DNA of 64,000 bases from Salipaludibacillus daqingensis (lineage in GTDB: Bacteria > Bacillota > Bacilli > Bacillales > Salisediminibacteriaceae), in contig NZ_JARZHF010000006.1 in NCBI RefSeq assembly GCF_029891575.1, forward strand, positions 62,001-126,000. Reading direction: 5' to 3'. The notes under the pieces are model-generated. The model ran no database searches, was not told where the DNA came from, and saw nothing but the letters and a program-made list of their open reading frames with translations. Positions 34,676 through 53,246 of the stretch are shown here, piece after piece; positions within the stretch are counted from its first letter, which is position 1, and each line of letters starts with the position of its first letter. Made by a program: the position numbers and the translations under genes.

Positions 34676-35446
34676 ATGAATTCACGTATCAACAGCCAAC
34701 CGAAAGTATCTGTTATCACACCTTCATATAACTCAGAGAAATTTATTAGTAAAACCATTAATTCTGTTTTACAACAGACGTATCAAAACTGGGAAATGAT
34801 TATTGTTGATGATGCATCCTCTGATGAGACGGTCTCCCTAATCAACGAATATAAAGAAAAAGACAGACGTATTCGTGTCGTTCCTCTCGAAGAAAATAAA
34901 GGTGCAGCAAATGCTCGAAATATCGGAATTCGTGAAAGCACTGGGCGGTTTATTGCTTTCTTAGATAGCGATGACGAATGGATGCCAGAAAAAATTGAAA
35001 AACAACTTAGTTTCATGTTAAAGAAGAACATTGGATTTTCCCATACTGCTTATTCTATCGTTGATGAAACGGGACAATGGATAAAAGCAAGTGAAAAAGT
35101 TCCACCTTCGACCAACTATAAAGATTTGTTAAAACAAAATACAATCGGTTGCCTAACGGTAATGCTAGACAAAGAAAAAGTTGGGGAAGTGGAAATGGTT
35201 GATATTAGAGCAAGGCAAGACTATGTACTATGGTTGGAGATAACGAAAAAAGGACAACTAGCATACGGGTTGAACGAATCTCTCGCAAAATACAGACAGA
35301 TGAGTAGTTCCTTGTCTAGTAACAAGCTAAATATGGTGAAACTTAACTGGAAAGTGTATCGAGACATAGAGAAATTAAGTTTATTGAAAAGTATTTGGTA
35401 CTTTGCTCACTTTGCTATAAACAAAACGATGAAATATATGAAATAG
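34676..35446 (+). CDS. GT2-family glycosyltransferase, TuaG-like
   Basis: The 256-residue single-domain GT-A enzyme starts VSVITPSYNSEKFISKTI, then IIVDDASSDET and the metal-binding FLDSDDEW. Length and layout resemble TuaG, a teichuronic acid transferase. GGTGGAGAG precedes the ATG. Confidence 0.83.
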   Translation: MNSRINSQPKVSVITPSYNSEKFISKTINSVLQQTYQNWEMIIVDDASSDETVSLINEYKEKDRRIRVVPLEENKGAANARNIGIRESTGRFIAFLDSDDEWMPEKIEKQLSFMLKKNIGFSHTAYSIVDETGQWIKASEKVPPSTNYKDLLKQNTIGCLTVMLDKEKVGEVEMVDIRARQDYVLWLEITKKGQLAYGLNESLAKYRQMSSSLSSNKLNMVKLNWKVYRDIEKLSLLKSIWYFAHFAINKTMKYMK

Positions 35447-37810: not shown

Positions 37811-40342
37811 ATGATCAAGCAAGCAAAGAAGTCAGTGTCAAATGCCATAGAATGGATTCTTTACAAGAAATTGAAGTCCAGCCAAAAAGAGAGACTGTCT
37901 AAAATATTAACGACAGATCAAAAAGAATTTTTAAAAAAGATACTTAAACCAGGCGATAAACGTGGCAAATTAAAGAAAGTAGATAGATTAAAATTCCGTT
38001 TGACAAGCCTAGGTTTTCAAGAGAAAGCATTAGAAGATTTAGAAGCTCTCTTCAAGCAAGAGGAAGATCTTTTCTTGAAGAAAATGGCTGGGTATGAGCT
38101 GATTGTTTGGCATGCCAACTTACAGAATGAAGAGGCGGCTAAAAAAGTAATAGACCTAGGTTCACAATTACTTACAGTAGAGAAAGATAGTGACCGACTG
38201 CGTAAGCTGATCATCATGTTGACGGAAAGCTATCATATTTTAGGGAAAGCAGAGACGGCTGTCAAAATTATCGCAAGGTTACTTAAAAGTGACACCCACC
38301 ATGACACAGTGTTCGCCATGGCGAATTTGGAAGAGGAAGACGAAAAGAAACTAGAATGGGTTAATCAAATCTACCGAAAAGAAGGTAGGAAAGAAATAGC
38401 TCTTATGAATAACCCTCAAGCAGAACATAAATATGATTTATTAACGACGATACCTTCCACGACTCATGAGGATACTAGTAATCAAGATGCAAAAGTGACC
38501 ATTATTGTACCGGTCTATAATGCGGAAGACAAAGTTGCTTCTGCGTTACATTCATTACTAAATCAAACGTGGAAAAACATCGAGATCATTGTTGTTGATG
38601 ACTGCAGTACGGATAACACAGTCACCGTTATAGAAGGTTTAATGAGAGAAAATTCAGCTGTTAAATTTTATCAAACACCTATCAATAGTGGGGCATATGT
38701 GGCGAGAAACGTTGCCTTACAACATGCTACAGGAAAATACGTCACGATCAATGATGCAGATGATTGGTCTCACCCAGAAAAAATCGAACTGCAAGTTCGC
38801 CATTTAGAAAAAAATCAAAAGTTAATTGGGAACTTTAGTAATCAGGCACGATTATCGAATGATTTAAATTTTTATCGCCGTGGCAAGTTTGGCGTTTATA
38901 TGTTCGCGAACTTTTCTTCCTTTATGTTTCGAAGAGAAGAAGTGTTTAATAAACTAGGCTTTTGGGACTCTGTCCGATTTGCCGGAGATTCTGAATACGT
39001 AAAGAGAATCAAAAAAACTTTTGGTGAGAAGGCGATAGAAGAAATATCGTCTGCACCGATGTCTTTCCAACGACAAACAGAGGATTCGTTAACTGGAAAT
39101 TCTGCTTTTGGTTTTCCAGGTTTCTTTATGGGAGCTAGAAAAGAATATGCTGAGTCTCATGAACACTATCACGAGAGCGGAGCGAGTTTAACATACCCTT
39201 TTCCTATGGAATCAAGGCCTTTTCCTGTTCCCGTGCCAATGAAACCTGATGGAAAACCGCAAAAGGGTGAAAGAAGACACTTTGATGTGATCATCGCCTC
39301 TGAGTTTCGCCTTTTAGGTGGAACGAACATGTCTAATATTGAAGAAATCAAAGCACAGAAACGAGAAGGGCTTCGAACCGGACTCATCCAGCTTTCTAGG
39401 TATGATTTAAACTCGGTGGAACGAGTCAATTCGAACGTCCGAGATGTCATCGATGGCGATCTCGTGCAGATGCTTGTGTACGGAGAAGAAGTGAGTTGTG
39501 ACGTTCTTATTGTGCGACATCCACCTGCCTTACAAGAGTGGCAAAAATACGTGCCGGATGTGAAAGCGAACAAGGTGGAAGTGATCGTCAACCAACCGCC
39601 GAAACGGGACTACAGCGAAACGGGGGAAACCCTTTACTATATCAAAGATTGTTTACAAAACTTGAAAACGTATTTTGGACAAAGTGGCACATGGTACCCG
39701 ATTGGACCAGAAATCCGTAAAGCATTAGAACAACATCATAAAGATGATTTAGCTGCGATCAACTTAGCAACAGAAGATTGGGTGAACATCATTGATGTGG
39801 AGGAATGGAAACGAGACGAGTATATTCCAAAACAAGATATGATTCGTGTTGGGCGTCACTCGAGAGATCAATACGTAAAATGGCCAGAAACTCGAGAGCA
39901 AATGGAGAAAGTTTATCCGTCCACATCGCCTTATGAAATTCATGTATTAGGTGGCGCAAACAGTGCCAAGAAAGTCATGGGAGAACTCCCAAAAAACTGG
40001 CATGTAAAACAATTTGGAGAACAATCCCCACGAGACTTTTTGAAAGATCTGGATGTGTTTGTCTACTATACGCATTCTGGCTGGGTCGAAGCGTTTGGCC
40101 GCGTGATTTTTGAAGCGATGGCAGCCGGTGTGCCAGTCATTATTGAACCAAAATATAAGGATTTATTCGGAGAAGCAGCGATATATGCCGAAGCAGATAA
40201 CGTGCAAGAGACGATAGACAAACTAATGGACGATCCAACGATGTACAAAGCACAAGTGGACAAAGCGCTAGCCTATGTCGAAAGTAATTTTGGCTATTCC
40301 AAACATATCGCACGGATTGCGAGGGATGGAAGTGGGGCGTAA
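37811..40342 (+). CDS. Large dual glycosyltransferase (GT2 + GT4), copy 1
   Basis: The 843-residue protein has an alpha-helical, TPR-like N-terminus (~1–215), a GT2 domain (~227–440; TIIVPVYNAEDK, IIVVDDCSTDN, NDADDWSHPEK) and a GT4-type C-domain (~452–835; HVLGGANSAKKVMG, AFGRVIFEAMAAGVPVI). The last 1.17 kb nearly equals that of the next gene. Two catalytic domains suggest a polymerase adding alternating sugars. AAAGGTGGTGA precedes the ATG. Confidence 0.85.
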   Translation: MIKQAKKSVSNAIEWILYKKLKSSQKERLSKILTTDQKEFLKKILKPGDKRGKLKKVDRLKFRLTSLGFQEKALEDLEALFKQEEDLFLKKMAGYELIVWHANLQNEEAAKKVIDLGSQLLTVEKDSDRLRKLIIMLTESYHILGKAETAVKIIARLLKSDTHHDTVFAMANLEEEDEKKLEWVNQIYRKEGRKEIALMNNPQAEHKYDLLTTIPSTTHEDTSNQDAKVTIIVPVYNAEDKVASALHSLLNQTWKNIEIIVVDDCSTDNTVTVIEGLMRENSAVKFYQTPINSGAYVARNVALQHATGKYVTINDADDWSHPEKIELQVRHLEKNQKLIGNFSNQARLSNDLNFYRRGKFGVYMFANFSSFMFRREEVFNKLGFWDSVRFAGDSEYVKRIKKTFGEKAIEEISSAPMSFQRQTEDSLTGNSAFGFPGFFMGARKEYAESHEHYHESGASLTYPFPMESRPFPVPVPMKPDGKPQKGERRHFDVIIASEFRLLGGTNMSNIEEIKAQKREGLRTGLIQLSRYDLNSVERVNSNVRDVIDGDLVQMLVYGEEVSCDVLIVRHPPALQEWQKYVPDVKANKVEVIVNQPPKRDYSETGETLYYIKDCLQNLKTYFGQSGTWYPIGPEIRKALEQHHKDDLAAINLATEDWVNIIDVEEWKRDEYIPKQDMIRVGRHSRDQYVKWPETREQMEKVYPSTSPYEIHVLGGANSAKKVMGELPKNWHVKQFGEQSPRDFLKDLDVFVYYTHSGWVEAFGRVIFEAMAAGVPVIIEPKYKDLFGEAAIYAEADNVQETIDKLMDDPTMYKAQVDKALAYVESNFGYSKHIARIARDGSGA
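39167..40336 (+). repeat. 1.17-kb near-identical duplication, copy 1
   Basis: Bases 39167 to about 40336 match 41808 to about 42977 at a constant offset of 2641 with no gaps and roughly 15 mismatches seen by eye (about 98–99% identity). It starts in the middle of a codon run (YHESGASLTYPF) and ends at the gene's 3' end, spilling into the start of the next gene. Confidence 0.92.
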
Positions 40343-42980
40343 AACTTCATATAATCATGATCACACCAAGCCGAATGATTTGGAACATCAATGGAAGCAT
40401 GAGGCCATCCTTCATGAAAAACTGCTAGAAGAAAACAGAGAGCTGGAGAAACAATTTGAATCGTATCAAAAGTCTTTACCGATGCGAGTTGCTAGAAAGA
40501 TGAAGAAGGTTAAATATTACATTAGGCAAATCTTAAAAATCATTACTGGAAAAAGAAACTATAAAGACGTTTTCAGTAAGCCATATAAAAAGCAAAAAGC
40601 CAAAAAACGGATCAAGCAATTAACTTATCGTCTGTATGAATTAGGTTTTGAAGATAAAGCGGTGAAGGAACTGGAAACAGTTATTGAACGGTCAGACAAC
40701 CAGTACCTTGTCGAACTTGCTCAGTGGGAACTAGTTAGTTGGTATGCAAATAAAGGGACGGTTAAAGACTTGCAAAAGGCTATGATGTATTTGACCCAAC
40801 TAACTAAAATGCCTTCCGGGATCATCCCAAAAAGAAAAATGGTGTTAATGGAATCCGAAATATACGCTGGTTTAGGAATGAAAGAATTAGCTGTGAATAA
40901 ATTAGATGAACGTATGAAAAAAGAAACACACGTTGATCTATTTTTTGGCATGGCTAATTTGAAAGAAAATATTTCTGATAAGGTCAACGTCATCAATGAA
41001 GCTTTATCAATGAACGGGCAAATGAGCATAGACGTGGGGACTGACAATGATGGCGACGAGACAACTGTTTATGATAGATTGCGGGTAATGCTGGATGAAA
41101 AGAGCGATCACGAGAGGCAATTAGAAGATAAAAAAATTTCCATCATCATTCCAGCTTATAATTCGGAATCGAATTTATCGACAGCGATAGAAAGTTTACT
41201 TCATCAAACGTGGAGGAATATAGAAATCATTGTCGTAGATGATTGTAGTACAGATCAAACGTTTGAAGTGGCAAAGGCCTATACAAAAAGGGACTCTAGA
41301 GTGACTTGTTATCAAAACGTAGTAAATTCTGGACCTTATATAGCAAGGAACAAAGGGTTAAACGTGGCAAACGGGGATTATATTACGGTTCATGATGCGG
41401 ATGATTGGTCACACCCTGAAAAAATTGCGTATCAAGCAAATCATTTATCCACTCATCCAGAAGTGATTGCAAATACATCGTTGCAAGCAAGAGTAACAGA
41501 AGAATTGACGTTTTTTAGAAGAGGGAAACCAGGAGTATATGCGTTCCCGAATATGTCTTCATTGATGTTTAAAGCGGAGAAGGTAAGAGAACAAATCGGG
41601 TATTGGGATAGCGTCAGATTCGGTGCGGATGCTGAATTTAAAAAGCGGATGATTCGAGTGTTTGGAAAAGGTGCTGTGACAGATTTAAAAGACGGTATTT
41701 ATTCGTTTCAACGACAAACTGCCAATTCACTTACAGGAAGTTCGAAGTTTGGTTATCATGGTTTTTTCATGGGCGCACGAAAAGAACATCGTGAAGCCTA
41801 TTTGACTTATCACGAGAGCGGAGCGAGTTTAACATACCCTTTTCCTATGAAATCAAGGCCTTTTCCTGTTCCCGTGCCAATGAAACCTGATGGAAAACCG
41901 CAAAAGGGTGAAAGAAGACACTTTGATGTGATCATCGCCTCTGAGTTTCGCCTTTTAGGTGGAACGAACATGTCTAATATTGAAGAAATCAAAGCACAGA
42001 AACGAGAAGGGCTTCGAACCGGACTCATCCAGCTTTCTAGGTATGATTTAAACTCGGTGGAACGAGTAAATTCCAACGTCCGAGATGTCATCGATGGCGA
42101 TCTCGTGCAGATGCTTGTGTACGGAGAAGAAGTGAGTTGTGACGTTCTTATTGTGCGACATCCACCTGCCTTACAAGAGTGGCAGAAATACGTGCCGGAT
42201 GTGAAAGCGAACAAGGTGGAAGTGATCGTCAACCAACCGCCGAAACGGGACTACAGCGAAACGGGGGAAACCCTTTACTATATCAAAGACTGTTTACAAA
42301 ACTTGAAAACATACTTTGGACAAAGTGGCACATGGTACCCGATTGGACCAGAAATCCGTAAAGCATTAGAACAACATCATAAAGATGATTTAGCTGCGAT
42401 CAACTTAGCAAGAGAAGATTGGGTGAACATCATTGATGTGGAGGAATGGAAACGAGACGAGTATATTCCAAAACAAGATGTGATTCGTGTTGGGCGTCAC
42501 TCGAGAGATCAATACGTAAAATGGCCAGAAACTCGAGAGCAAATGGAGAAAGTTTATCCGTCCACATCGCCTTATGAAATTCATGTGTTAGGTGGCGCAA
42601 ACAGTGCCAAGAAAGTCATGGGAGAACTCCCAAAAAACTGGCATGTAAAACAATTTGGAGAACAATCCCCACAAGACTTTTTGAAAGATCTGGATGTGTT
42701 TGTCTACTATACGCATTCTGGCTGGGTCGAAGCATTTGGCCGCGTGATTTTTGAAGCGATGGCAGCCGGTGTGCCAGTCATTATTGAACCAAAATATAAG
42801 GATTTATTCGGAGAAGCAGCGATATATGCCGAAGCAGATAACGTGCAAGAGACGATAGACAAACTAATGAACGATCCAACGATGTACAAAGGACAAGTGG
42901 ACAAAGCGCTAGCCTATGTCGAAAGTAATTTTGGCTATTCCAAACATATCGCACGGATTGCGGGGAATGGAAATGGATGA
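40332..42980 (+). CDS. Large dual glycosyltransferase (GT2 + GT4), copy 2
   Basis: The 882-residue paralogue of the preceding gene has a charged helix and SLPMRVARKMKK near residues 40–60, a helical region, GT2 (~264–480; IIIPAYNSESN, VVDDCSTDQT, HDADDWSHPEK) and GT4 (~492–875). The frame is open upstream, but the N-terminus would lie inside the previous gene. GAGGG at 40321 is ideally spaced for the GTG at 40332; the ATG at 40326 is too close. The region before residue 490 is clearly diverged from copy 1, the rest is almost identical. Confidence 0.83.
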   Translation: MGRKTSYNHDHTKPNDLEHQWKHEAILHEKLLEENRELEKQFESYQKSLPMRVARKMKKVKYYIRQILKIITGKRNYKDVFSKPYKKQKAKKRIKQLTYRLYELGFEDKAVKELETVIERSDNQYLVELAQWELVSWYANKGTVKDLQKAMMYLTQLTKMPSGIIPKRKMVLMESEIYAGLGMKELAVNKLDERMKKETHVDLFFGMANLKENISDKVNVINEALSMNGQMSIDVGTDNDGDETTVYDRLRVMLDEKSDHERQLEDKKISIIIPAYNSESNLSTAIESLLHQTWRNIEIIVVDDCSTDQTFEVAKAYTKRDSRVTCYQNVVNSGPYIARNKGLNVANGDYITVHDADDWSHPEKIAYQANHLSTHPEVIANTSLQARVTEELTFFRRGKPGVYAFPNMSSLMFKAEKVREQIGYWDSVRFGADAEFKKRMIRVFGKGAVTDLKDGIYSFQRQTANSLTGSSKFGYHGFFMGARKEHREAYLTYHESGASLTYPFPMKSRPFPVPVPMKPDGKPQKGERRHFDVIIASEFRLLGGTNMSNIEEIKAQKREGLRTGLIQLSRYDLNSVERVNSNVRDVIDGDLVQMLVYGEEVSCDVLIVRHPPALQEWQKYVPDVKANKVEVIVNQPPKRDYSETGETLYYIKDCLQNLKTYFGQSGTWYPIGPEIRKALEQHHKDDLAAINLAREDWVNIIDVEEWKRDEYIPKQDVIRVGRHSRDQYVKWPETREQMEKVYPSTSPYEIHVLGGANSAKKVMGELPKNWHVKQFGEQSPQDFLKDLDVFVYYTHSGWVEAFGRVIFEAMAAGVPVIIEPKYKDLFGEAAIYAEADNVQETIDKLMNDPTMYKGQVDKALAYVESNFGYSKHIARIAGNGNG
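41808..42977 (+). repeat. 1.17-kb near-identical duplication, copy 2
   Basis: Partner of 39167–40336 at offset +2641. Protein differences noted are about six residues (for example E/K in PFPMESR, T/R in LATED, R/Q in SPRDF). Flanking upstream DNA is unlike copy 1. Confidence 0.92.
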
Positions 42981-44397
42981 TCAACAAAGAAACCAAATAA
43001 TAGATAAGGTGAAAAAAGAAAACGATTGGAAAAAGGTAAAGGAAGAAAATCGGCAGTTAGAAAAAAGAAATAAACATATTAAAAATAGTAAAGTATGGAA
43101 AATCGGAACACTCATCCTAAAACCTTTCAGGATTTTATCACGAATACTTAATTGGAAACCAACCACAAAAAAACAACGCATTCATGAACTAGAAAAAGAT
43201 AACTACTACTTAACTCAGCAAATTTCCTTTTTAACAGAAAAGCTTGAAATCCGTAATGATCACCTGCGCATCATGTCTAATGAATCTGAGAAAATACCAA
43301 AAGAGACGATTAGAAAAATCAGTAAAGAAACAGAATCAATGGAAATGCTATTCTCAATCATAGAAGACGTAAAACAAACGAAAAAAAATAAAAAACTAAT
43401 TTTGGATGCTATAGTGAATCAATATAACTATACAAATGACTTTGACAAAAAGAACCTCATCTATACGAAAGTTATGGAATCATATGATATAGGGGAAATT
43501 CCCGAAAAAATGATTCGCCATCTAGAAGACGAGCGTACTGAAAAACATCAGCTCGTTTCTTCTTTTAAAACGAGTTTGGCTTTTCGTTCAACAATGAGAA
43601 AGAATCGCCATATTTCGTATGAACAGATGTTGGATACGAAATCGAGTGCATACGAGTTCGTCGATGAATTAAATATTCGTAGACCAGAAACGAGCTCAAA
43701 AACTTATGGATTAGATAAAGTTCCGTTCAAGGAAAAAATAGTCGTGAAACCAGTTGATTCAGCTGGTGGAAGAGGCGTTTATATCATATATTCGGAAAAA
43801 AAGATCCAAAGAGTAAAAGATTCCACTATTTTTCAAGGGTACGATGAATTAAAATATAGGATGGGTAAAGATTTGTCGAACGGTCTGGTGAAAAATGACG
43901 AATGGTTCATGGAGGAACTGGTCATTGAACATGAAACTGAAACACCTGCGAGGGATATGAAGTTCTATTGTTTTTATGGAAAAATAGGTCTCGTTCTCGA
44001 AATTGTTCGATCACCTCGCATCCAATATTGTTGGTGGGATGGTCTAGGAAATCAGATTATTACTGGCAAATATGAAGAAGATTCTTTTCTAGGTAGTGGT
44101 TTTACAGAAAAAGAATTACAGATAGCTTTAGATATTAGTACCGAAATCCCTGTACCGTTTATGAGAGTCGATTTTTTAAAGACTGAAAGGGATTTTGTTT
44201 TTGGAGAATTCACTCCGAAACCAGGTAACTATGATGAATTTGACGGTGAAACAGATCGTCGTTTAGGTCAGCTCTATTTGGACGCTGAATATAGAATAGT
44301 AGAAGACTTAATGAACGGAAAAGAGTTTAGTCAGTTTAAAGATATATACTACAAACATGAAAAGACTTGGAAGGTCGATGAGGAGGAACAACCATGA
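42973..44397 (+). CDS. TupA-like ATP-grasp ligase
   Basis: The 474-residue protein has a charged N-terminal helix and NSKVWKIGTLILKPFR (~35–50), then a helical region and a C-terminal ATP-grasp domain (~225–470): IVVKPVDSAGGRGVYI, ARDMKFYCFYGK and FGEFTPKPGNYDEFDGE. This matches the TupA-like family, named after the B. halodurans (C-125) teichuronopeptide gene. ATP-grasp enzymes make amides through acyl-phosphates. The start overlaps the previous stop by 8 bases with GGGG upstream. It ends in an ATGA overlap with the next ligase gene. Confidence 0.75.
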   Translation: MDDQQRNQIIDKVKKENDWKKVKEENRQLEKRNKHIKNSKVWKIGTLILKPFRILSRILNWKPTTKKQRIHELEKDNYYLTQQISFLTEKLEIRNDHLRIMSNESEKIPKETIRKISKETESMEMLFSIIEDVKQTKKNKKLILDAIVNQYNYTNDFDKKNLIYTKVMESYDIGEIPEKMIRHLEDERTEKHQLVSSFKTSLAFRSTMRKNRHISYEQMLDTKSSAYEFVDELNIRRPETSSKTYGLDKVPFKEKIVVKPVDSAGGRGVYIIYSEKKIQRVKDSTIFQGYDELKYRMGKDLSNGLVKNDEWFMEELVIEHETETPARDMKFYCFYGKIGLVLEIVRSPRIQYCWWDGLGNQIITGKYEEDSFLGSGFTEKELQIALDISTEIPVPFMRVDFLKTERDFVFGEFTPKPGNYDEFDGETDRRLGQLYLDAEYRIVEDLMNGKEFSQFKDIYYKHEKTWKVDEEEQP

Positions 44398-46028
44398 TTG
44401 AGGATAAGCCCAACGAAAACTTTTTGCCCCACTTAACTGAAGAAATGGTGACAGAAGCAAAAGGACCTGAATTAGATGCTTTCGCTATCGCATTAGAAGG
44501 ATGGCGGAGAGGCTTAACGCTAAAGTGGTATGCAAAAAATGCGCCAACGTTTCAGGGTATGAACGTATGGAATGTGGAAAAGCCAGGTAAATTATTTTCG
44601 CTCGCTTCAGATGAACAGTTTCATTGTTTTTTTAGAAGTAGAGGCGATCGCGTATCGAATGAAGCGGTTGAAGTTTGTATGGACAAGCATCGTACAAAAG
44701 ATGTTCTCCAAAAAAATGGTGTTTCTGTTCCAGGTGGGAAAACTTTCGAGGCGGAAGCGGAGATTGAAATTGTGTTACAGTACGCAAGCGAACTTGGTTT
44801 CCCTATTGTCGTAAAGCCGATCGATGGAAGTTTTGGTCGTGGTGTATACTCTAACATTAAGAGTTCAGAAGAATTAACGAACGTGTTAGAAAAACAAAAG
44901 AACGCAGAAGAACCTGGAGATTATCTTGTTGAACGATTTATCCCAGGAGATGAATATCGGGTATATGTTGTCGATCAAGAGGTCGTCGGAGTCATTATGA
45001 GAATCCCAGCTAATGTAATGGGCGACGGAGAACATACGATTAAACAATTAATCGACATCAAAAATGCAGAAAGGGATATGAACCCTAGACTTTCTAGTTG
45101 TCCCATCGTTATTAATGAGGAAGTTGTTAAATATTTACAAGAAAATAGCCTCACTCTTGATGATGTGGTCAAAGAAAATGAAATCGTAAAATTAACAGAG
45201 AAAAGTAATATTTCCATTGGTGGCGATCCTATTAGTATGGATATTGACTCTGTTGAGAAAGTTTGTGAAGTTTCTATACAAGCTGTAAATGCTATAGATG
45301 ACTTGCCTCATGCTGCAGTTGACGTGATTTGGGATAAAGTAAGTGGCGAAGTAGCGGTATTGGAAATTAATCCATCTGCTCAACTTGGATCGCTGTTATT
45401 TCCTATGGAAGGTCCTTCATTTGATGTTCCTTCTGCAATTATAGATTATTATTTTCCTGAGACAAAAGATGTGAAAGTAGAAAAAGAAAAATTGTATTTT
45501 GATCTATCGGATGTGTTGTTCCCATTGAAATCGAAAACGAGTTTGATTACAACGGTTAGTCCTGCTTTTTTGAGTAAGGTTCATGTAGTGAAATATACAG
45601 TATATGGAGATGTAGGTGGAATAGATTACCACAGAGGACTTAGAAAACAGGCATTTGAGCGAGATCTAAGCGGATTTGTTATGAATCTAAGTGATGGTTC
45701 AATGGAAGTTATTGTCGCTGGGGAAGATATAGAATGTGTTAATGACTTTGAAAATGCGATTTGGGAAGATCCTGAACGATCTGAGGTAGAGCGGGTAGAA
45801 TCATCTGCCTATGATGGCCCTGTGAAGATAGGATTTGAAATAAAAGCTGATTTAAAAACACAATTGGAAGAATTAAAGACGTTAAAAGTAGAAGTGGAAC
45901 AAACGGAAAAAAAATATAAAAAATTAAAGAAAAGAAATGAAGAGTTGAGAAATAGTATTTCTTGGAAAATCTCTTCCCCTATAAGAGTTGTAGGAGACAC
46001 ATTTAAGATGTTTAGGGTGAAAAGGTGA
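44394..46028 (+). CDS. Cyanophycin-synthetase-like ATP-grasp ligase with degenerate acylphosphatase domain
   Basis: The 544-residue protein has an N-domain with the family-wide ALEGWRRGL motif (~residues 32–40) and RSRGDRVSNEAVEVC, an ATP-grasp domain (~100–350; IVVKPIDGSFGRGV, VERFIPGDEYRVYVV, metal-site LEINPSAQLG), and an acylphosphatase-like domain (~395–470). There the catalytic Arg is His (VGGIDYHR). The C-terminus has a coiled coil and NSISWKISSPIR. AGGAGGAA precedes the ATG. Likely forms an amide bond between amino acids or amino acid and glycan; substrate unknown. Confidence 0.75.
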   Translation: MIEDKPNENFLPHLTEEMVTEAKGPELDAFAIALEGWRRGLTLKWYAKNAPTFQGMNVWNVEKPGKLFSLASDEQFHCFFRSRGDRVSNEAVEVCMDKHRTKDVLQKNGVSVPGGKTFEAEAEIEIVLQYASELGFPIVVKPIDGSFGRGVYSNIKSSEELTNVLEKQKNAEEPGDYLVERFIPGDEYRVYVVDQEVVGVIMRIPANVMGDGEHTIKQLIDIKNAERDMNPRLSSCPIVINEEVVKYLQENSLTLDDVVKENEIVKLTEKSNISIGGDPISMDIDSVEKVCEVSIQAVNAIDDLPHAAVDVIWDKVSGEVAVLEINPSAQLGSLLFPMEGPSFDVPSAIIDYYFPETKDVKVEKEKLYFDLSDVLFPLKSKTSLITTVSPAFLSKVHVVKYTVYGDVGGIDYHRGLRKQAFERDLSGFVMNLSDGSMEVIVAGEDIECVNDFENAIWEDPERSEVERVESSAYDGPVKIGFEIKADLKTQLEELKTLKVEVEQTEKKYKKLKKRNEELRNSISWKISSPIRVVGDTFKMFRVKR

Positions 46029-46053
46029 GAATGGTAACTGGAGGTATATTATT

Positions 46054-47700
46054 ATGAATCAAGCAATCACATTGCCACATTTAACAAATGATATCGTAAA
46101 CAGTGCAAGGAAAACGAGACTATGTGCTTATACTGTTGCTTTGGAAGGTTGGCGACGGGGGTTAACCTTGAAATGGTACACAAAAGACAGTGACCATTTT
46201 AAAGATATGGTCGTATTTGGAGTGAATCCTCCAGGAAGACTATTTTCATTAAGTTCTGATACGAAAACGCATTATTTCTTTCGGACAAGAGGAGATAAGG
46301 TGACAAGTGAAGCGGTGGAAATAGGTTCTGACAAAGATTTAACGAAAGTATGGTTAGAAAAATCAGGTGTCCCTATTCCTAAAGGGTTTGGGTTTGATGA
46401 AACTCATAGCGAAGATGATATCGTTGAAGCATCAAAACAATTAACATATCCTGTTGTATTAAAGCCGACGAATGGAAGTTTAGGTTATGGTGTAGTAACG
46501 AACATCCAATCAGAAAAGCAATTAAGGAAAACGATTAATTACGTTAGAAATCATTTAGAATATGTCGAAGTAGTATTAGAAGAACACAAAAAAGGCTTGG
46601 AATACCGTGTGTATGTCATTGAAGATAAAGTCATTGCAGCCTATAACCGTGTTCCAGCAAATATAAAAGGTGATGGCATTCATACGATTGAAGAATTAAT
46701 TACCTTGAAAAACTTGGAGCGTAAAAAGAACGCTAGGCTCCATAGCTGTTTAATTGATATAGATATAGAAATAAAAGAGTTTTTGGAAAAAGCAGATTAT
46801 GACTTTGAAAGTATTCCTCCTAAAGGAGAAAAAATATATTTAAGAGAAAAAACAAACGTTTCTTCTGGTGGCGATCCGATCGATGTCACGGACGAGATGC
46901 CAGAGCATTATAAAAATGTTGCGATTGAAGCGGTTAAAGCGATACCTGGATTTAACCATGGTGGAGTAGATATTATTGTTGATGACTCAAAACCACTTGA
47001 AGAATCTGCCGTTGTTATTGAATTAAATGCTACAGCACAAATTGGAGGTATTTTATACCCTCTGAGAGGAAAAGCTCGTGATATACCTAAAGCAATTGTA
47101 GACTACTATTTTCCAGAAACGAAAGATATAGATACATCAAAATCAAAAGTTTACTTTGATTTTTTGACAGCAATGGAACCGTTAGAAAATCGATCAGCCA
47201 TTGAGGTCCAAATTAACGAGGCTCCTAAAGGAGAACTCATTAGAAAGAAATACTCGTTAACAGGAGATGTTAATCGTCAAAGTTTTCATCATGCAATTAG
47301 CATTTATGCGCAAAATAATGGAATTCACGGCGGAATAAATAAAAACTTCAATGGTGAAATTGATTTGATTGTCGGATGTGACCAAAAGGAAACATTAAAT
47401 GATTTCAAAAAATATATAAAAGGACTAACGCATCTTGCTAAAGTTGAAAAAATAAATGAAGAATCATGGAAAGAACCAATAAAAGTTGGATTTGAAATTA
47501 ATGAAAACTTTAATGTCAGTAAAAAAGAAAGCGTCAATCAGGCACTTAAGCGACTAAGAAGAGAACACAAGAAGCTAACGAAAGAAGTGTATCATTTAGA
47601 GAAAGATAATATAAACATTGTCACAAGTAGATCTTGGAAAGCGAGTGGACTTCTGCGCTCTGCAAAAAATAATCTCAAAAAGACTATTAAAAAAGAATAA
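46054..47700 (+). CDS. Cyanophycin-synthetase-like ATP-grasp ligase, paralogue 2
   Basis: 548 residues with the same layout: ALEGWRRGL, RTRGDKVTSEAVE, VVLKPTNGSLGYGV, EEHKKGLEYRVYVI, KTNVSSGGDPIDVTD and metal-site VIELNATAQIG. The acylphosphatase-like region (SLTGDVNRQSFHH) has His for the catalytic Arg and is probably inactive. The tail carries a coiled coil then TSRSWKASGLLR. CTGGAGG lies upstream; 26 bases from the previous gene. Confidence 0.75.
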   Translation: MNQAITLPHLTNDIVNSARKTRLCAYTVALEGWRRGLTLKWYTKDSDHFKDMVVFGVNPPGRLFSLSSDTKTHYFFRTRGDKVTSEAVEIGSDKDLTKVWLEKSGVPIPKGFGFDETHSEDDIVEASKQLTYPVVLKPTNGSLGYGVVTNIQSEKQLRKTINYVRNHLEYVEVVLEEHKKGLEYRVYVIEDKVIAAYNRVPANIKGDGIHTIEELITLKNLERKKNARLHSCLIDIDIEIKEFLEKADYDFESIPPKGEKIYLREKTNVSSGGDPIDVTDEMPEHYKNVAIEAVKAIPGFNHGGVDIIVDDSKPLEESAVVIELNATAQIGGILYPLRGKARDIPKAIVDYYFPETKDIDTSKSKVYFDFLTAMEPLENRSAIEVQINEAPKGELIRKKYSLTGDVNRQSFHHAISIYAQNNGIHGGINKNFNGEIDLIVGCDQKETLNDFKKYIKGLTHLAKVEKINEESWKEPIKVGFEINENFNVSKKESVNQALKRLRREHKKLTKEVYHLEKDNINIVTSRSWKASGLLRSAKNNLKKTIKKE

Positions 47701-47711
47701 ATGGTAAAGTA

Positions 47712-47740
47712 TTGGCTCTGTTTAGTTTGATTGATATAAT
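47712..47740 (+). promoter_or_regulatory. Internal promoter before the third acylphosphatase-type ligase
   Basis: TTGGCT (47712–47717), a 17-base spacer and an extended -10 TGATATAAT (47732–47740) lie in a 106-base gap. This suggests that the downstream ligase genes can be transcribed separately. Confidence 0.55.
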
Positions 47741-47745
47741 CTACG

Positions 47746-47765
47746 GATTGTTTACATAAACAATC
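47746..47765. promoter_or_regulatory. 20-bp palindrome at the predicted transcription start
   Basis: GATTGTTTA-CA-TAAACAATC has perfect 9-bp arms and begins 5 bases after the -10, covering the expected start point. It looks like a repressor operator; an RNA hairpin is the alternative. Confidence 0.5.
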
Positions 47766-47806
47766 TAATGCTTTGAGAGTAACTTTATTATGAAGGGGAT
47801 AAAAAC

Positions 47807-49432
47807 ATGAGTGAAGAAAATTATGAGTGGTTACCCCATTTAAATAAATCTATACCAAAGATTGCGTACGGAGATAAAATTGATATGTATGTAATGGCCC
47901 TAGAAGGATGGAGAAGAGGTTTAACATTAACATTTGTAAGTGTAAGTAGTAAAAACTTAGTCAGATTTAAATTGAGTAATGGTAAAAGAGAACATAACTT
48001 CTCTGTCACTAGAGGAGATAAAGTTTCTGAAGAAGCAGTTGCAATTTGTGTTAATAAAAAATTAACCAAAGATTACCTGTTAAAAGCCGGAGTCTCTGTC
48101 CCTCTAGGCTCTAGTTTCAATAAAGATGTCTCTGATAGTCATATATTAAAATATTCAGAAGAATTAGGCTATCCTTTAGTTCTGAAACCGATTGATGGGA
48201 GAAGGGGAAGAGGAGTAATATCCAACATTCAAAATTCAGAAGAAATGTTAGATGCTTTGCAACAAGTGCGTATAAATATGAATTATTCAGAAGTAATTGT
48301 TGAACAATATTTTGCCGGGGAAGAATTCAGAGTTTATGTAGTTGATGGAAAAGTAGTTGGAGTTATAAAAAGAATCTCCGCCAATGTCGTCGGTGATGGG
48401 AAGCATACAATTAAAGAATTAATTGAAATAAAAAATAACAAAAGAAAAAAAGTTCCTAATATGCATACTAGACTAATTAATATAGATAGAGAAGTTCTAA
48501 AACATATTGAAAAGGCAAACTATACTCTAGAATCTGTACTAGAAGATGGAAAACTACTCTTCTTAAGACAAAAAGGAAATTTATCCACGGGTGGAGATTC
48601 TATTGATTATACAGATGAAATTGGGGAAGAAGTAAAAAAAACAGCGATTGAATCTTCTAAAGCGATCCCAGATTTAGGTCAATGTGGAGTGGATGTTTTA
48701 TACAACAAAAATAAAAATAAAGCTGTGGTGATAGAAGTTAATAGTCGAGCGGGGGTAGGAGGGCATTTATTCCCATTGTATGGGAAAGCTAGAGATGTTC
48801 CAAAAGCTATCATAGATTATTACTTTCCAGAAACATCATCAAAATATAATAATAATTATGACAAGGTATATTTTGACTTTAGCTCCTGCTGGGATATTAT
48901 TAAGAGTGGCAAAGTTAAAGAAGTAAAAGTTCAACCAATACCAAAAGAACCTTTAATTACAAAGCAATACAAAGTCTCGTCGATTACAAAAAGTAATACT
49001 TTCCTAGAAAGGGTTTATAAAAAGGCCACTAGGTTAAATATAAACGGATATATAAACAAAATAGGAAAGCAAGAATTTTCTATTGTTGCTGCTGGTAATA
49101 AAAAAAATATGGAAGAGTTTAAGGAAAGTATTTTAAATAATTTTGATAATGAAAATGTAGAAATGATAGAAAACGAATGGAAAGCATTAATCACTCAAGG
49201 GTTCGAAGTTCTTAATACTAGTCAGAACGCTAATGGCACCGTGAAAAAGAAAAAAAATAAAACCAATGAAAATAAAAAAATCGAGAAATATAAATCAGAC
49301 ATAGAAGATTTAAAGAAGCAATTATCTGAAAAAGATAAGAAATACAATGAAATAATTACAAGTAAGTATTGGAGATATACTTCACCCTTTAGGAAAGTTA
49401 GTGACACAATTAACAAGAACAAAAAGAAATAA
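47807..49432 (+). CDS. Cyanophycin-synthetase-like ATP-grasp ligase, paralogue 3
   Basis: 541 residues: ALEGWRRGLTLTF, VTRGDKVSEEAV, VLKPIDGRRGRGV, VEQYFAGEEFRVYVV, KGNLSTGGDSID and metal-site VIEVNSRAGVGG. The acylphosphatase-like region is the most degenerate of the four (SSITKSNTFLER; no Arg at the catalytic position). The tail has a Lys-rich coiled coil and TSKYWRYTSPFR. It is more AT- and Lys-rich than its upstream neighbours. Confidence 0.73.
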   Translation: MSEENYEWLPHLNKSIPKIAYGDKIDMYVMALEGWRRGLTLTFVSVSSKNLVRFKLSNGKREHNFSVTRGDKVSEEAVAICVNKKLTKDYLLKAGVSVPLGSSFNKDVSDSHILKYSEELGYPLVLKPIDGRRGRGVISNIQNSEEMLDALQQVRINMNYSEVIVEQYFAGEEFRVYVVDGKVVGVIKRISANVVGDGKHTIKELIEIKNNKRKKVPNMHTRLINIDREVLKHIEKANYTLESVLEDGKLLFLRQKGNLSTGGDSIDYTDEIGEEVKKTAIESSKAIPDLGQCGVDVLYNKNKNKAVVIEVNSRAGVGGHLFPLYGKARDVPKAIIDYYFPETSSKYNNNYDKVYFDFSSCWDIIKSGKVKEVKVQPIPKEPLITKQYKVSSITKSNTFLERVYKKATRLNINGYINKIGKQEFSIVAAGNKKNMEEFKESILNNFDNENVEMIENEWKALITQGFEVLNTSQNANGTVKKKKNKTNENKKIEKYKSDIEDLKKQLSEKDKKYNEIITSKYWRYTSPFRKVSDTINKNKKK

Positions 49433-49467
49433 ATTAAATAACTGTTTGACAATATGGGGGACTAATA

Positions 49468-50670
49468 ATGCTTGTAGGCTTTATGAGAAACTATATAAAA
49501 CCGCCTAAGATTGCAAAAGTTTTAGCGATGACTTGCCAATACCATAATCTAACATTTATCTATTTTAGACCAAAGGATATTGATATGAGTGGTCATAAAG
49601 TTAAAGGTAAAATGCTGTTGAATAATAAATGGATTTCAGTTGAAAAAGATATTCCAAGTTTTATAGATGTTACTAGCTATTCATTTAAATATACAGAAAT
49701 TATGAATTATCTAAATGATAAAGCAGAATTATCAGATGATGGAAAAAACCGGATGTCAAAGGAAAAGTTGCAAAAACTATTGTTAGACAATAATAATTTT
49801 AAACATCTCGCAATTCCAACGAAAAAGGTATCTGACCAAAGTAATATTGAAGAATTCCTTAATGACTATAATAAAGTAGTGTTAAAACCTATTTCAGGTC
49901 AACAAGGTAAAGGTGTTTATTCATTAACAAAAATCGATGATTATTATAAATGTGAATATCAAAAAACAGAATTTAATTTGTCAAAAGTGGAATTTTATGA
50001 TTTTTACAAGAAATATATAGAGAGTAATAATTATATTATTCAAAAATATGTATCTTCAAAAACATCTAGAGAAGACCCTTATGACTGTAGGGTTCACGTT
50101 GAAAAAAACGGAAAAGGTGAATGGGTCATAGCAAAAATGTATATCAGAATTGGTCTTGGACAAAAAATAACTTCCAATATCCACCAAGGCGGGGGAGTCT
50201 GTAATCCCAAAACATTTCTCAAAAGTAATTTTGGAGAGAAATGGGAGAGCATTTATCGAAATACAAAACAGGTGTGCCTTGGATTATCTCAAGAAATAGA
50301 AAAATATAGAGATCAAAAATTAATGGTATTAGGTTTTGATGTAGGTATTGATCAAAGTGGAGAGATATATTTATTTGAAGTGAATAGTGCTCCAATAGTT
50401 GATCATCTTAAAGCTGAAGTAGGTCTACTCAGGTCTGAGTATTATAAGTATATGGTAAGTGAAAATACTCAAGATGAAAAAGAAACAAAACCTCTTAAAA
50501 AGAAAAAGAGAAAACCTTTAAAAGTTAATAACAATAAAGAAAAGATTAAACAATTAGAAAAAGAAGTTTTAACGTATAAAAAAAGAATTGAAAATATAGA
50601 AAATAGTAGATCCTGGCGACTTACTAAACCAATTAGGAAACCTAGAGAAATTTTAAAAAATATGAAGTGA
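49468..50670 (+). CDS. YheC/YheD-type ATP-grasp protein
   Basis: The 400-residue protein has an N-domain (FIYFRPKDIDM, IPSFIDVTSYS), then an ATP-grasp domain with VVLKPISGQQGKGVYSL, DPYDCRVHVEKNGKGEW, SNIHQGGGVCNP and metal-site LFEVNSAPI. These features fit the YheC/YheD family found in Bacillus (YheC/D of the spore coat). The tail again carries a coiled coil and NSRSWRLTKPIR, shared with the unrelated ligases next to it. GGGGGAC precedes the ATG. Confidence 0.75.
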   Translation: MLVGFMRNYIKPPKIAKVLAMTCQYHNLTFIYFRPKDIDMSGHKVKGKMLLNNKWISVEKDIPSFIDVTSYSFKYTEIMNYLNDKAELSDDGKNRMSKEKLQKLLLDNNNFKHLAIPTKKVSDQSNIEEFLNDYNKVVLKPISGQQGKGVYSLTKIDDYYKCEYQKTEFNLSKVEFYDFYKKYIESNNYIIQKYVSSKTSREDPYDCRVHVEKNGKGEWVIAKMYIRIGLGQKITSNIHQGGGVCNPKTFLKSNFGEKWESIYRNTKQVCLGLSQEIEKYRDQKLMVLGFDVGIDQSGEIYLFEVNSAPIVDHLKAEVGLLRSEYYKYMVSENTQDEKETKPLKKKKRKPLKVNNNKEKIKQLEKEVLTYKKRIENIENSRSWRLTKPIRKPREILKNMK

Positions 50671-50810
50671 AAAAATAAATTTTTCTATACCTATTATCTA
50701 TGTTATATAGGAATATAATATACGTTTTAAGGGTGAATATTTTTAACATTAACTGTAAAAATTAACATGTAATTAATTATTATAACTACTAAAAATACGG
50801 AGGATTAAAT

Positions 50811-52415
50811 GTGAGTAATACTAATGACAACAATTTGGACTATGTAACGAATAAGATGGTTAAAGATGCTAGAGGAGTTTCTTTATGTCCATATTTGATA
50901 GCTCTAGAAGGTTGGCGACGCGGCTTAAAATTAGAGTGGTTTCCTAGTGATTCAAAAGAAGGAAATGTAAAGAAAGAAGGCAACCTTAATTTACCTACTA
51001 AACTTTATCGATTGAGCTCTGATAAAAGTGAGCATTTCTTTTTTAGGTCTAGAGGTGATGAAGTAAGTGAAGAAGCGATTAATATTTGTAAAAATAAAGA
51101 AGAAACAAAAGAACGCTTGAAAAAAAATGATGTACCAACTCCTGAAGGGAAAAGGTTTGGTAACGAAGCTACTATAGAAGAAATTATAGAATATGGTTTA
51201 AATCTAGGGTTCCCTATAGTGGTAAAACCAACAAATGGGAGCTTAGGAAAAGGTGTTATTGCGAATATAAATAATAAATCTGAATTAGAAAATGCATATA
51301 ATTATGTTCGTTATGAATTGAAATATTCTGATGTTATCGTTGAGAAATATGTTAATGGTAGTGAACATCGCGTCTATGTTGTCGGTGACAAAGTAATAGG
51401 GGCAATAAAAAAGCTTCCACCAAATGTCATCGGTGATGGTATGAGTAAGATCGAAACACTAATAAAAAATAAAAATACAGAAAGACTTTCAAACCCGCAT
51501 TTATCTAAACGTCCAATCAAAATAGATTATGAGGTTCTTAACTGTATTGAAGAGTATGGGTATAATTTAAATAGTATTATTAAAAAAGATGAACAAATAT
51601 TTTTAAGGAAGAAAAATAGTCTTTCTTCTGGCGGAGATCCCGTGGATTCTACAGATGAATTATCAGATAATATTAAGTCAATTGCTGTAAATGCAGTCGC
51701 ATCTATACCTAATCTTAATCAAGCTGGATTGGACCTAATTGTAGATATTGATAATGATATTGGTGTAGTAATAGAATTAAATGGAACTGCAATAATAGGG
51801 TCACATGTATTTCCAGGGAAAGGGCAAGCTCGAGATATTCCTTCTGCAATAATTGATTATTATTTTCCAGAGACGATTAATTTAGAAAAAAGCCAATTAT
51901 ACTTTGATTTTAAGAGTGTAAAACAAGTTTTTGAAAATAAGATCGTCAATTCCCTCACATTAGCTCCAGCACCTGAAGGGAAATTATTTACTCGCAAATA
52001 TATTGTAACTGGAAAAGTTCAACGTGTAGGCTACAGACAATGGATAAGAAAACAAGCGCTAAAACAAGGTTTAAACGGTTATACGAAAAATTTAATGAAC
52101 GGAAAAGTTGTAGTTGTCGTAGCGAGTGCAAATAAACAGCAGTTAGAAGATTTTAAAAAAGTATGTCTAAAAGGTTCTGTGAAATCAGATGTAGAAAAGG
52201 TAACTTCTCATGAATGGGATAGACCATTAAAGCTAGGTTTTGAAATAAAAAGTAATATGAAAGCACAGCCAAAGAAAAAAAATAAACAAACTAAAAACAT
52301 GAAGAATCCAAATAATCAATTCATAAGTGAAGAAAAATACAACGCTGTAATTAACAGTCGTTCTTGGAGATATACGTCTCCTTTAAGGACCATAATTAAG
52401 AAAATAAAAAATTGA
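50811..52415 (+). CDS. Cyanophycin-synthetase-like ATP-grasp ligase with intact acylphosphatase domain
   Basis: 534 residues: ALEGWRRGLKLEW, RSRGDEVSEEAIN, VVKPTNGSLGKGV, VEKYVNGSEHRVYVV, KNSLSSGGDPVDSTD and metal-site VIELNGTAIIG. The acylphosphatase domain (~390–465) keeps the catalytic Arg (TGKVQRVGYRQW) and the Asn (GYTKNLMNG), unlike its three paralogues. The tail has NSRSWRYTSPLR. It starts with GTG, with CGGAGG 7 bases upstream; no ATG is available there. Confidence 0.78.
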   Translation: MSNTNDNNLDYVTNKMVKDARGVSLCPYLIALEGWRRGLKLEWFPSDSKEGNVKKEGNLNLPTKLYRLSSDKSEHFFFRSRGDEVSEEAINICKNKEETKERLKKNDVPTPEGKRFGNEATIEEIIEYGLNLGFPIVVKPTNGSLGKGVIANINNKSELENAYNYVRYELKYSDVIVEKYVNGSEHRVYVVGDKVIGAIKKLPPNVIGDGMSKIETLIKNKNTERLSNPHLSKRPIKIDYEVLNCIEEYGYNLNSIIKKDEQIFLRKKNSLSSGGDPVDSTDELSDNIKSIAVNAVASIPNLNQAGLDLIVDIDNDIGVVIELNGTAIIGSHVFPGKGQARDIPSAIIDYYFPETINLEKSQLYFDFKSVKQVFENKIVNSLTLAPAPEGKLFTRKYIVTGKVQRVGYRQWIRKQALKQGLNGYTKNLMNGKVVVVVASANKQQLEDFKKVCLKGSVKSDVEKVTSHEWDRPLKLGFEIKSNMKAQPKKKNKQTKNMKNPNNQFISEEKYNAVINSRSWRYTSPLRTIIKKIKN

Positions 52416-52523
52416 TGTAATTTAAAAACTTGTGTACATGACCCTAGTCCTTTAAACTAAAATTGCAACGAATTTATCGAGTAAGAAAAATCATGATTTA
52501 GTTATAGTAGGAAGTGAATAGAG

Positions 52524-53246
52524 ATGGAATTACAAAATAAAACAATAGGAATTTTAGGAGGCATGGGGCCGGCAGCAACAGTGGAGTTATTTAGTCGAAT
52601 TGTGAATAACACTGTTGCTACTTCAGATCAAGAACATGTAAACATGGTAATAATTAATGACCCACAAATACCGGATCGATCAAAATATATTTTGGAAAAA
52701 GGAGAAAGTCCGCTCCCTAAACTGAAAGATAATCTTATCAAGCTATATAATGCTGGGGCTGACGTCGCAATTATTCCATGTATGACAGCTCATTCATTCA
52801 TCACTGAGTTACAATATCATTCGCCGATACCTATCATTAATGCTATTGAATTAGTCGAGAAGCACATTAAAGAAACTTTTCCATTTATTGAAAAGGTAGG
52901 ACTTTTAGCAACTACTGGTTCTGTCAAATCAGGAGTTTATCAGAAGTATTTAACTAAAACGATATACACACTGGATGAACACGAACAAAATAAATTGATG
53001 GGAGCAATTTATGATAAAGATGGTATTAAAGGTGGAAATATATCAGATGAATCAGCTAGTCGCGTATTAAATGTATTAGAAACATTAAAAGATAGAGATG
53101 TTGACGCTGTTATAGCAGGATGTACCGAGTTAGGTTTAGTGTTAAATGATGAAAATGCAAAAATCCCAGTCATTGATCCTATTTTTCTGTTAGCTAAAGA
53201 AGCGGTTAGAATTGGAAATCACTACACACTAGTGGAAAATAAATAG
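52524..53246 (+). CDS. Aspartate/glutamate racemase family protein
   Basis: The 240-residue protein has IGILGGMGPAATVEL, the first catalytic Cys in IIPCMTAHSF and the second in VIAGCTELG, so a two-cysteine cofactor-free racemase of the Asp/Glu type. The usual Asn after the first Cys is Met. In context it may supply D-Glu or D-Asp to the ATP-grasp ligases. GGAAGTGA precedes the ATG; a strong terminator follows, so it closes the polymer locus. Confidence 0.85.
   Translation: MELQNKTIGILGGMGPAATVELFSRIVNNTVATSDQEHVNMVIINDPQIPDRSKYILEKGESPLPKLKDNLIKLYNAGADVAIIPCMTAHSFITELQYHSPIPIINAIELVEKHIKETFPFIEKVGLLATTGSVKSGVYQKYLTKTIYTLDEHEQNKLMGAIYDKDGIKGGNISDESASRVLNVLETLKDRDVDAVIAGCTELGLVLNDENAKIPVIDPIFLLAKEAVRIGNHYTLVENK

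Follow-up and report, generated by a model that had tools for sequence, protein, structure and literature searches.

A conserved row of ATP-grasp ligases, four of them with acylphosphatase domains, in Salipaludibacillus daqingensis: a candidate locus for an acidic surface polymer

Introduction

The stretch of DNA analysed here (64,000 nucleotides, positions 62001-126000 of contig C6 in the 4.58 Mb genome of Salipaludibacillus daqingensis; hereafter the window) carries a run of plus-strand genes (window positions 32374-64000) in which six ATP-grasp ligase genes and a racemase gene lie in a row behind glycosyltransferase genes and an ABC exporter. Four of these ligases belong to one family, here termed LIG, in which an ATP-grasp domain is joined to a C-terminal acylphosphatase domain. 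We propose that the product of the locus is an acidic surface (wall) polymer that bears amino acids, the ligases amidating carboxylates in the cytoplasm before the product is exported, and we give this reading a probability of about 0.6. The locus is conserved and real, and is of a recognisable kind, that of the acidic glycan-peptide surface polymers. No description of it was found in the openly licensed PMC literature searched, in agreement with a sequence-only reading of the window, which had known of no described system with this composition and whose interpretation is, overall, partly supported by the present analysis. As far as the available text of the sources goes, the synthesis of acidic glycan-peptide wall polymers in alkaliphilic and halophilic Gram-positives rests on one named gene, tupA; the locus supplies conserved candidate enzymes, in recognisable orthologous groups, that are open to single deletion and assay.

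The ligase row and its conserved order

The row begins with a long-form TupA-like ATP-grasp ligase (42973-44397; PF14305, E 2e-57), whose frame is open from 42916; the start at 42973 is the likelier one, because the codons 5' of it overlap the end of the preceding gene. It continues with LIG1 (44394-46028), LIG2 (46054-47700), LIG3 (47807-49432), a YheC/D-like ATP-grasp enzyme (49468-50670; PF14398, E 5e-55), LIG4 (50811-52415) and an Asp/Glu-family racemase (52524-53246; PF01177, E 1e-36), all of them intact open reading frames (ORFs) on the plus strand. Pfam and the ORFs agree with the sequence-only reading, which had counted one TupA-like, four cyanophycin-synthetase-like and one YheC/D-like gene followed by the racemase.

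Among the best 80 of 115 places encoding a LIG relative in a scan of named genomes (a scan that cannot show absence of the family from other genera), we identified at least 63 further loci, including loci of Evansella, Oceanobacillus, Virgibacillus, Salinicoccus and Alkalicoccus; nearly all genera with the locus are known as halophilic, halotolerant or alkaliphilic. The 63 named loci and the window hold 235 LIG proteins or fragments, and LIG of less than 420 aa (14 of the 235) were left out of the residue counts and the tree, for which 221 remain. The flanks end at 10 kb or at contig ends. L006 is itself part of the window genome; it was kept in the clustering, motif and profile counts and out of the residue counts, tree, gene-order counts and shuffles. 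Some loci are not independent: L013 and L017 lie on one contig, L019 and L020 come from the same species, and the two members of each of the pairs L030/L057, L053/L066 and L054/L065 share an assembly.

The core is composed of the exporter, the glycosyltransferases, the long TupA, LIG1 and LIG2, and is followed by a variable set. The neighbourhood comparison that had been suggested for the ALEGWRRGL-type ligases gives the order TupA-LIG-LIG in 52 of 64 loci, with a glycosyltransferase upstream in 49 of these, an ABC ATPase in 38 and a permease in 27. In a tree of the 221 LIG, the ligase next after TupA falls in all 54 cases within one clade of 56 members (support 0.987), and 41 of the 54 second ligases form a clade of 41 (support 0.991). 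Because LIG1 forms a single clade and LIG2 for the most part does so too, the two probably have different, fixed tasks, which is in line with the earlier expectation of several distinct amide bonds. The variable set, to which LIG3 and LIG4 belong, is made of further LIG, YheC/D enzymes, a racemase or CapA (in some cases as a fusion with TupA), and the number of LIG of at least 420 aa per locus ranges from 1 to 8. Within the window's genus alone this part contains, depending on the genome, a racemase of Asp/Glu type (window), a glutamate racemase (G338), CapA (G400) or a CapA-TupA fusion (G397).

Full-length LIG are present in 21 of 397 genomes sampled from the order (E <1e-100). In a sample of 398 genomes of the phylum, full-length LIG occur, among the matches listed, in the window genome and one other, and the remaining matches listed cover the ATP-grasp part only. 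Distant relatives adjoin TagF-type glycerophosphotransferases (identified by Pfam in L051 and L104 and by clustering in L056) and ABC genes.

The ATP-grasp domain of LIG

The window LIG (534-548 aa) give RimK-, CPSase- and Ddl-type ATP-grasp matches in Pfam, and the CPSase-type model matches 53 of the 54 family members sampled; PHROGs recognises the acylphosphatase part and gives a weak RimK-like match, nothing else. Residues K96, K139, R187, D308, E322 and N324 (numbering of the 50811 protein, LIG4) are each conserved at 99-100% in the 221 LIG, and the ATP-binding lysine and E-x-N site that had been picked out by eye are among them. The closest solved relatives are cyanophycin synthetases (7wac by sequence, E 9e-67; 7wae by fold, E 3e-25), and the structure model of LIG4 (mean pLDDT 89.3, pTM 0.84; poor at residues 1-5, 54-59 and 484-504) has cyanophycin synthetases and GshAB as its nearest folds. 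The significant match is limited to LIG residues ~80-350, the ATP-grasp part; TIGR02068, the cyanophycin synthetase model, matches part of each window LIG with 184-244 bits against a cut-off of 850, and no Mur-ligase domain was found by Pfam in the four window LIG. The description of these ligases as cyanophycin-like holds for the ATP-grasp part; the proteins are not cyanophycin synthetases but ATP-grasp plus acylphosphatase proteins, and the sequence-only reading had overlooked both the acylphosphatase domain on all four LIG and a C-terminal motif that they share.

In CphA, according to PMC9427784, the ATP-grasp ligase phosphorylates a carboxylate, and the amine then attacks. We noticed that LIG1 and LIG2 differ at positions that touch the substrate or lie in the P-loop of CphA: the equivalent of E215 is Glu in 39 of 41 LIG2 and in 22 of 56 LIG1, and that of H267 is Phe in 52 of 56 LIG1 and Leu in 37 of 41 LIG2. 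Such differences would fit two different reactions. Assignment of the amino acid from the pocket residues of cyanophycin synthetase failed, since the equivalents of N394 and S396 are also present in a CphA2 (7ta5), so these residues cannot name the amino acid used by LIG. The 7ta5 entry bears CphA2 in its title and 'Glutathione synthase' as its molecule name.

The acylphosphatase domain

All four window LIG carry the C-terminal acylphosphatase domain PF00708 (E 1e-14, 4e-8, 2e-7 and 4e-19, in gene order), as do 45 of the 54 sampled LIG by Pfam and 211 of 237 by a home-made profile. Alignment places the catalytic Arg/Asn pair in 38 of the 221 LIG, from 36 of 64 loci; it is not kept in 183. In the window the pair is present in one of the four, LIG4 (R409, N427): LIG1 has His in place of Arg and keeps Asn, LIG2 has His and Lys at the two positions, and the domain of LIG3 is degenerate, with Leu and Lys. 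His replaces this Arg in 39 of the 41 members of the LIG2 clade, so that the site is probably not free to drift.

The state of the pair changes 16 times on the tree by parsimony, against 35.6 times in shuffles, and is thus clustered; a single origin was rejected, as the best clade holds 12 of the 38. Of the 113 variable ligases, which come from 56 loci, 36 carry the pair, with exactly one in 32 loci and two in 2 loci, against 21.3 and 6.5 loci in label shuffles that take no account of relatedness; two more cases, found among second ligases, are outside this count. That the pair, where present, usually sits in just one LIG per locus suggests that the domain has a function, and our guess is that it edits acyl phosphate intermediates.

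Acylphosphatase is fused to ATP-grasp in three arrangements: in LIG; in the YheC/D of Thalassobacillus (L019, L020), where it lies at the opposite end compared with LIG, with Arg and Asn in place by eye; and in L104 (G457; same phylum, outside the order), in a 936-aa protein that starts with acylphosphatase and continues with ATP-grasp. These three fusions suggest a control step on acyl phosphate intermediates, one that the literature searched did not reveal, and would offer ligases of this type in these genomes a role open to testing. Of all parts of the locus, the fusion of acylphosphatase to a ligase is the most original. In the 936-aa protein the ATP-grasp match comes in two stretches (home-made profile), and the LIG gene of L104 sits among TagF-type enzymes. 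Two other proteins (L052:13505-14506 and L027:7395-8276) combine the LIG N-terminal segment with a weak acylphosphatase match, and no ATP-grasp domain was detected between the two in either.

A shared C-terminal motif

The four LIG and the YheC/D protein of the window (tail NSRSWRLTKPIR) share a short C-terminal motif, for which we derived from the window proteins the pattern [ST]xx[WY][KR]x[ASTG]xx[LIVMFY][RK]. It is found near the C terminus of 143 of the 235 LIG and, among proteins of at least 200 aa, in 31 of 99 members of the TupA/CapA cluster and in 13 of 46 YheC/D proteins. None of 105 glycosyltransferases, 89 exporter and GT4 proteins and 120 other proteins has it, one of 65 peptidoglycan-binding proteins does, and shuffled sets give at most 1.0 per set. 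Near the N terminus of the window TupA there is a stretch, NSKVWK, that is tail-like by eye and outside the motif pattern. A similar tail seems to occur on surface-polysaccharide glycosyltransferases of other bacteria. The motif is probably an assembly or membrane tag.

TupA, CapA and teichuronopeptide

The window TupA reaches 195 bits with PF14305, against a cut-off of 25. In the sample of the order, TupA over this cut-off is present in 21 of 21 genomes with LIG and in 30 of 376 others (Fisher 3e-21, not a true probability, as the genomes are related). The TupA ORF has at least 407 aa in 20 of the 21, the exception being G087, with a TupA of 318 aa on a different contig from its LIG; in genomes without LIG it does not exceed 341 aa, apart from a handful of weak matches (25-31 bits) of 346-417 aa.

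CapA (PF09587; poly-gamma-glutamate capsule family) is present in 31 of 64 loci, and nine proteins (717-744 aa) match both the CapA and the TupA profiles, one of them confirmed by Pfam. Cluster 2 ('TUP', n=100) was rejected as the TupA family: it mixes TupA and CapA, because the fusions link them. Re-sorting with profiles gave 69 TupA proteins in 57 of 72 records and 37 CapA in 31 of 72. The profiles cross-match within the ATP-grasp superfamily: the YheC/D profile also matches some TupA, and it, not the TupA profile, matches three further long CapA proteins. The YheC/D numbers were therefore taken from the original clustering. At the window locus no CapA or CapC was found, and CapB was not searched for; on another contig the window genome has CapC (C9:130522) and CapA (C9:131145). 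A separate exopolysaccharide locus of the same genome (L103:9053-11113; G000:C7) has a short TupA (305 aa) next to a CapA (375 aa).

Teichuronopeptide is composed of poly-gamma-L-glutamate and polyglucuronate, tupA being named in B. halodurans; for O. iheyensis, OB2920 is given as the homologue of tupA, and 'teichuronopeptide synthesizing enzymes' are mentioned, a plural (available part of PMC8153356, which also holds an ambiguous sentence on polyglutamate genes clustered in C-125). PMC4431377 mentions linked ATP-grasp ligases in a general way and covers teichuronopeptides among them. G170 is a draft genome that matches the B. halodurans RNase H at 99% and may not be C-125. Its single TupA is short (292 aa) and lies among Wzx/Wzy-like exopolysaccharide genes (named by eye); a full-length LIG-family ligase was not found in it (best E 7e-7). 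The tupA of that species, at least that of this strain, thus seems to lie outside the LIG system, and the window locus is probably not simply the known tupA locus. The composition of glucuronate and glutamate, which the sequence-only reading had cited for the teichuronopeptide of TupA, is for this polymer an analogy only, this H. halodurans-like genome being without such a ligase.

Racemase and YheC/D enzymes

The 52524-53246 protein has the features of an acidic amino-acid racemase: PF01177, the general amino-acid racemase model TIGR00035 (211 bits against a cut-off of 93) and the catalytic-type cysteines C86 and C199. It also scores above the cut-off of the NCBI model for the cysteate racemase CuyB (NF052483, 210 bits against 190), and the polymer may, at this level of match, contain a sulfonated residue. 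The CuyB label was not taken as it is, since a true MurI is found in the same part of the locus in other species. The racemase slot is occupied by the Asp/Glu type in 4 loci, including the window, and by a true glutamate racemase (MurI) in 2 loci and G338. All three genomes whose locus includes MurI carry a second MurI elsewhere. The suggestion of D-residues supplied by the racemase can be upheld for some species, with two racemase subfamilies and a second MurI elsewhere, but the racemase is an accessory, present in 6 of 64 loci.

The YheC/D cluster counts 50 members, spread over 30 of 72 records; some of these records belong to the genome of the window itself. On a different contig, that genome also has four YheC/D genes in tandem (L094:11200-15836; G000:C11), probably the usual spore-coat set.

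Exporter, glycosyltransferases and other neighbours

Upstream of the ligases, as the sequence-only reading had it, are glycosyltransferases and an ABC exporter. The run starts with a GT4 glycosyltransferase (32374-33510; PF00534, E 3e-37; relatives in L061 and L017), a GT4-like one (33528-34652; PF00534, E 3e-11; a cluster of 11 in 11 of 72 records, window included) and a GT2 glycosyltransferase (34676-35446; PF00535, E 4e-43). An ABC-2 type permease, the putative polymer exporter (35474-36271; PF01061, E 1e-8; 33 in 33 of the 72 records), is followed by an ABC ATPase with two nucleotide-binding domains in a single chain (36286-37797; PF00005 in two stretches; 45 in 45 records) and by a pair of two-domain GT2 plus GT1 glycosyltransferases (37811-40342, PF00535 E 1e-35 and PF00534 E 5e-9; 40275-42980, PF00535 and PF00534). 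The C-terminal halves of this pair (39064-40335 and 41706-42976) are 96% identical over 1273 nt and 97.6% over 379 aa, with N-terminal halves at 41%; in 11 other loci with such pairs (two of them overlapping) the C-terminal halves are 58-77% identical. The near-identity suggests that gene conversion or duplication took place recently in the window strain.

To the right of the racemase lies an N-acetylmuramoyl-L-alanine amidase with 12 peptidoglycan-binding repeats (53767-57177; PF01471 in 12 stretches, PF01520 E 1e-50, SH3_3), of a type that is a frequent right-hand neighbour of the locus, and then a second large protein of the same peptidoglycan-binding cluster (57331-61404). This conserved linkage to hydrolases, exporter and glycosyltransferases agrees with the surface-polymer locus proposed by the sequence-only reading. 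A bacterial sugar transferase of the priming enzyme type (61721-63133; PF02397, E 8e-68) possibly acts in the same pathway, and the run closes with an NAD-dependent nucleotide-sugar epimerase/dehydratase (63164-64000; PF01370, E 1e-69) that extends past the window end and continues in L092.

Elsewhere, a family of 560-698 aa (L021:5317-7038 and relatives; 10 proteins in 9 loci) shows sub-threshold resemblance to glucuronyl C5-epimerase and GH76 and is a possible uronic-acid enzyme, and in an Oceanobacillus locus (L040:14309-16639) a Mur-ligase-type gene and a D-Ala-D-Ala-ligase-like gene come after the LIG genes. The window showed no excess of promoter-like sites (54 against 59.4) and an excess of terminator-like sites, both strands together (21 against 9.8). 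The longest terminator-like stem, a 20-pair hairpin with a T-rich 3' side (32161-32208), lies just 5' of the first glycosyltransferase gene and is a possible operon boundary.

Discussion

The exporter and glycosyltransferases beside the ligases make a carboxylate of a glycan or glycan-peptide, made before export, the most likely acceptor. The glycosyltransferases would assemble a cytoplasmic glycan, probably carried on a lipid, and the ATP-grasp ligases would turn carboxylates on the growing glycan or peptide into acyl phosphates and join them to amino acids through amide bonds. TupA, LIG1 and LIG2 would act as the fixed core, and the further ligases, here together with the YheC/D enzyme and the racemase, would add a species-specific finish, probably with a D-acidic residue. 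Through the C-terminal motif the ligases are probably anchored at the membrane or in the assembly complex, the acylphosphatase with its catalytic pair probably hydrolyses stalled or wrong acyl phosphates (being kept elsewhere as a binding version), the two-ABC-domain ATPase and the ABC-2 permease would export the product, and the adjoining amidases would remodel the wall that carries it. The amino acids and sugars of this polymer, its wall attachment and the order of reactions are predictions from domains and gene order.

Several observations weigh against this proposal. The TupA-LIG-LIG run is missing from 12 of 64 loci, some of them cut by the flank or by a broken gene, and L051, L056, L058, L068 and L071 have a different layout; 13 of the 54 second ligases lie outside the LIG2 clade, and 28 of 64 loci have no LIG with the acylphosphatase pair. 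The tail pattern was written after the window proteins had been seen. The window locus lacks CapA, the CapA and CapC genes of the genome being on other contigs; nothing in the core specifies the sugars, the nearest UDP-glucose dehydrogenase-type gene lying ~46 kb past the window end; and peptidoglycan-binding hydrolases commonly adjoin wall genes and are little proof. The residues that hold aspartate in CphA are partly kept, the equivalents of R323, N394 and S396 being present in most LIG, and the equivalent of R458, which contacts the alpha-carboxylate in CphA, is Gly, Ala, Ser or Thr in most LIG.

The locus might instead be the teichuronopeptide pathway itself, TupA and the ligases making poly-gamma-L-glutamate and polyglucuronate as in C-125, and be new only in that its genes are now described singly. 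In the available part of PMC8153356 tupA is the sole gene named for teichuronopeptide, and the synthesizing enzymes of O. iheyensis, which has OB2920, are plural; many Oceanobacillus loci carry the core, and CapA and the CapA-TupA fusions tie the locus to polyglutamate. The short TupA and lack of full-length LIG in G170 (with the reservation that this draft may not be C-125), and the separate LIG1 and LIG2 clades and the racemases, which call for more than one kind of amide bond, make this alternative unlikely, though far from negligible. A role in cytoplasmic metabolism or nitrogen storage, after the manner of the cyanophycin synthetases that are the closest solved relatives, seems very improbable, given a match confined to the ATP-grasp part, no Mur-ligase domain found by Pfam, scores far below the cyanophycin cut-offs, and LIG genes that lie beside exporter, glycosyltransferases and wall hydrolases in many loci.

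The presence of the YheC/D cluster in 30 of 72 records, its members being annotated as spore-coat associated, would agree with a spore-coat or spore-surface pathway. We give this little credence: the same core is found in Salinicoccus and Lacicoccus (L016, L028-L030, L064), staphylococcal relatives that are not known to sporulate, and the window genome has its separate four-gene YheC/D tandem on C11. HypF acylphosphatase domains hydrolyse carbamoyl phosphate, and LIG could by this precedent transfer another acyl group, such as carbamoyl, onto sugars, the acylphosphatase cutting an acyl phosphate as in HypF; the CPSase-type matches would also fit. The best-scoring relatives, CphA and GshAB, form amide bonds and are not carbamoyl phosphate synthases, and the racemases and CapA point to amino acids, so that a carbamoyl-type transfer has a slim chance.

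A bolder form of the proposed acidic, amino-acid-bearing polymer, which we regard as doubtful, is a new polymer class, made by an ordered, membrane-tethered row of ATP-grasp enzymes with D-acidic residues and with acylphosphatase acting in cis to edit or reset the acyl phosphate intermediate, usually by one editing ligase in each locus that has any, the other acylphosphatase domains being binding modules. If true, this would be a proofreading amide ligase system, unlike cyanophycin, poly-gamma-glutamate or the known teichuronopeptide gene.

Comparison with known systems

LIG has in common with the ATP-grasp domains of CphA1/CphA2 and GshAB the fold and the CphA1 catalytic residues K, K, R, D and E. 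Compared with CphA (~870 aa, with N and Mur-ligase-type M domains), LIG is shorter and has neither that size nor that N and M domain set; it starts with an EGWRRG segment, carries the acylphosphatase domain at its C-terminal end and often has the tail motif, and the P-loop His H267 is not kept. LIG shares the acylphosphatase domain with AcyP, and the 50811 protein also shares the two catalytic residues, Arg and Asn.

The ABC-2 permease (PF01061) and the ABC ATPase (PF00005 twice) beside glycosyltransferases, identified with general Pfam models, resemble TagGH-type wall teichoic acid export, and some LIG relatives sit with TagF-type enzymes; unlike in TagGH, the ATPase carries two ABC domains in one chain, and no TagF-type gene was found by Pfam among the window proteins scanned. 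The likeness to CapBCA/PgsBCA lies in the CapA-family protein of 31 of 64 loci, nine of which proteins match TupA as well, whereas at the window locus CapA and CapC are absent, and CapC and a CapA lie together on another contig. With the teichuronopeptide/TupA system of Halalkalibacterium halodurans C-125 the locus shares a TupA-type ATP-grasp ligase, a host among alkaliphilic Bacillales and an expected acidic glycan-peptide polymer; in contrast to the one gene, tupA, named there in the available source text, a long TupA is here followed by LIG1, LIG2 and a variable set of ligases.

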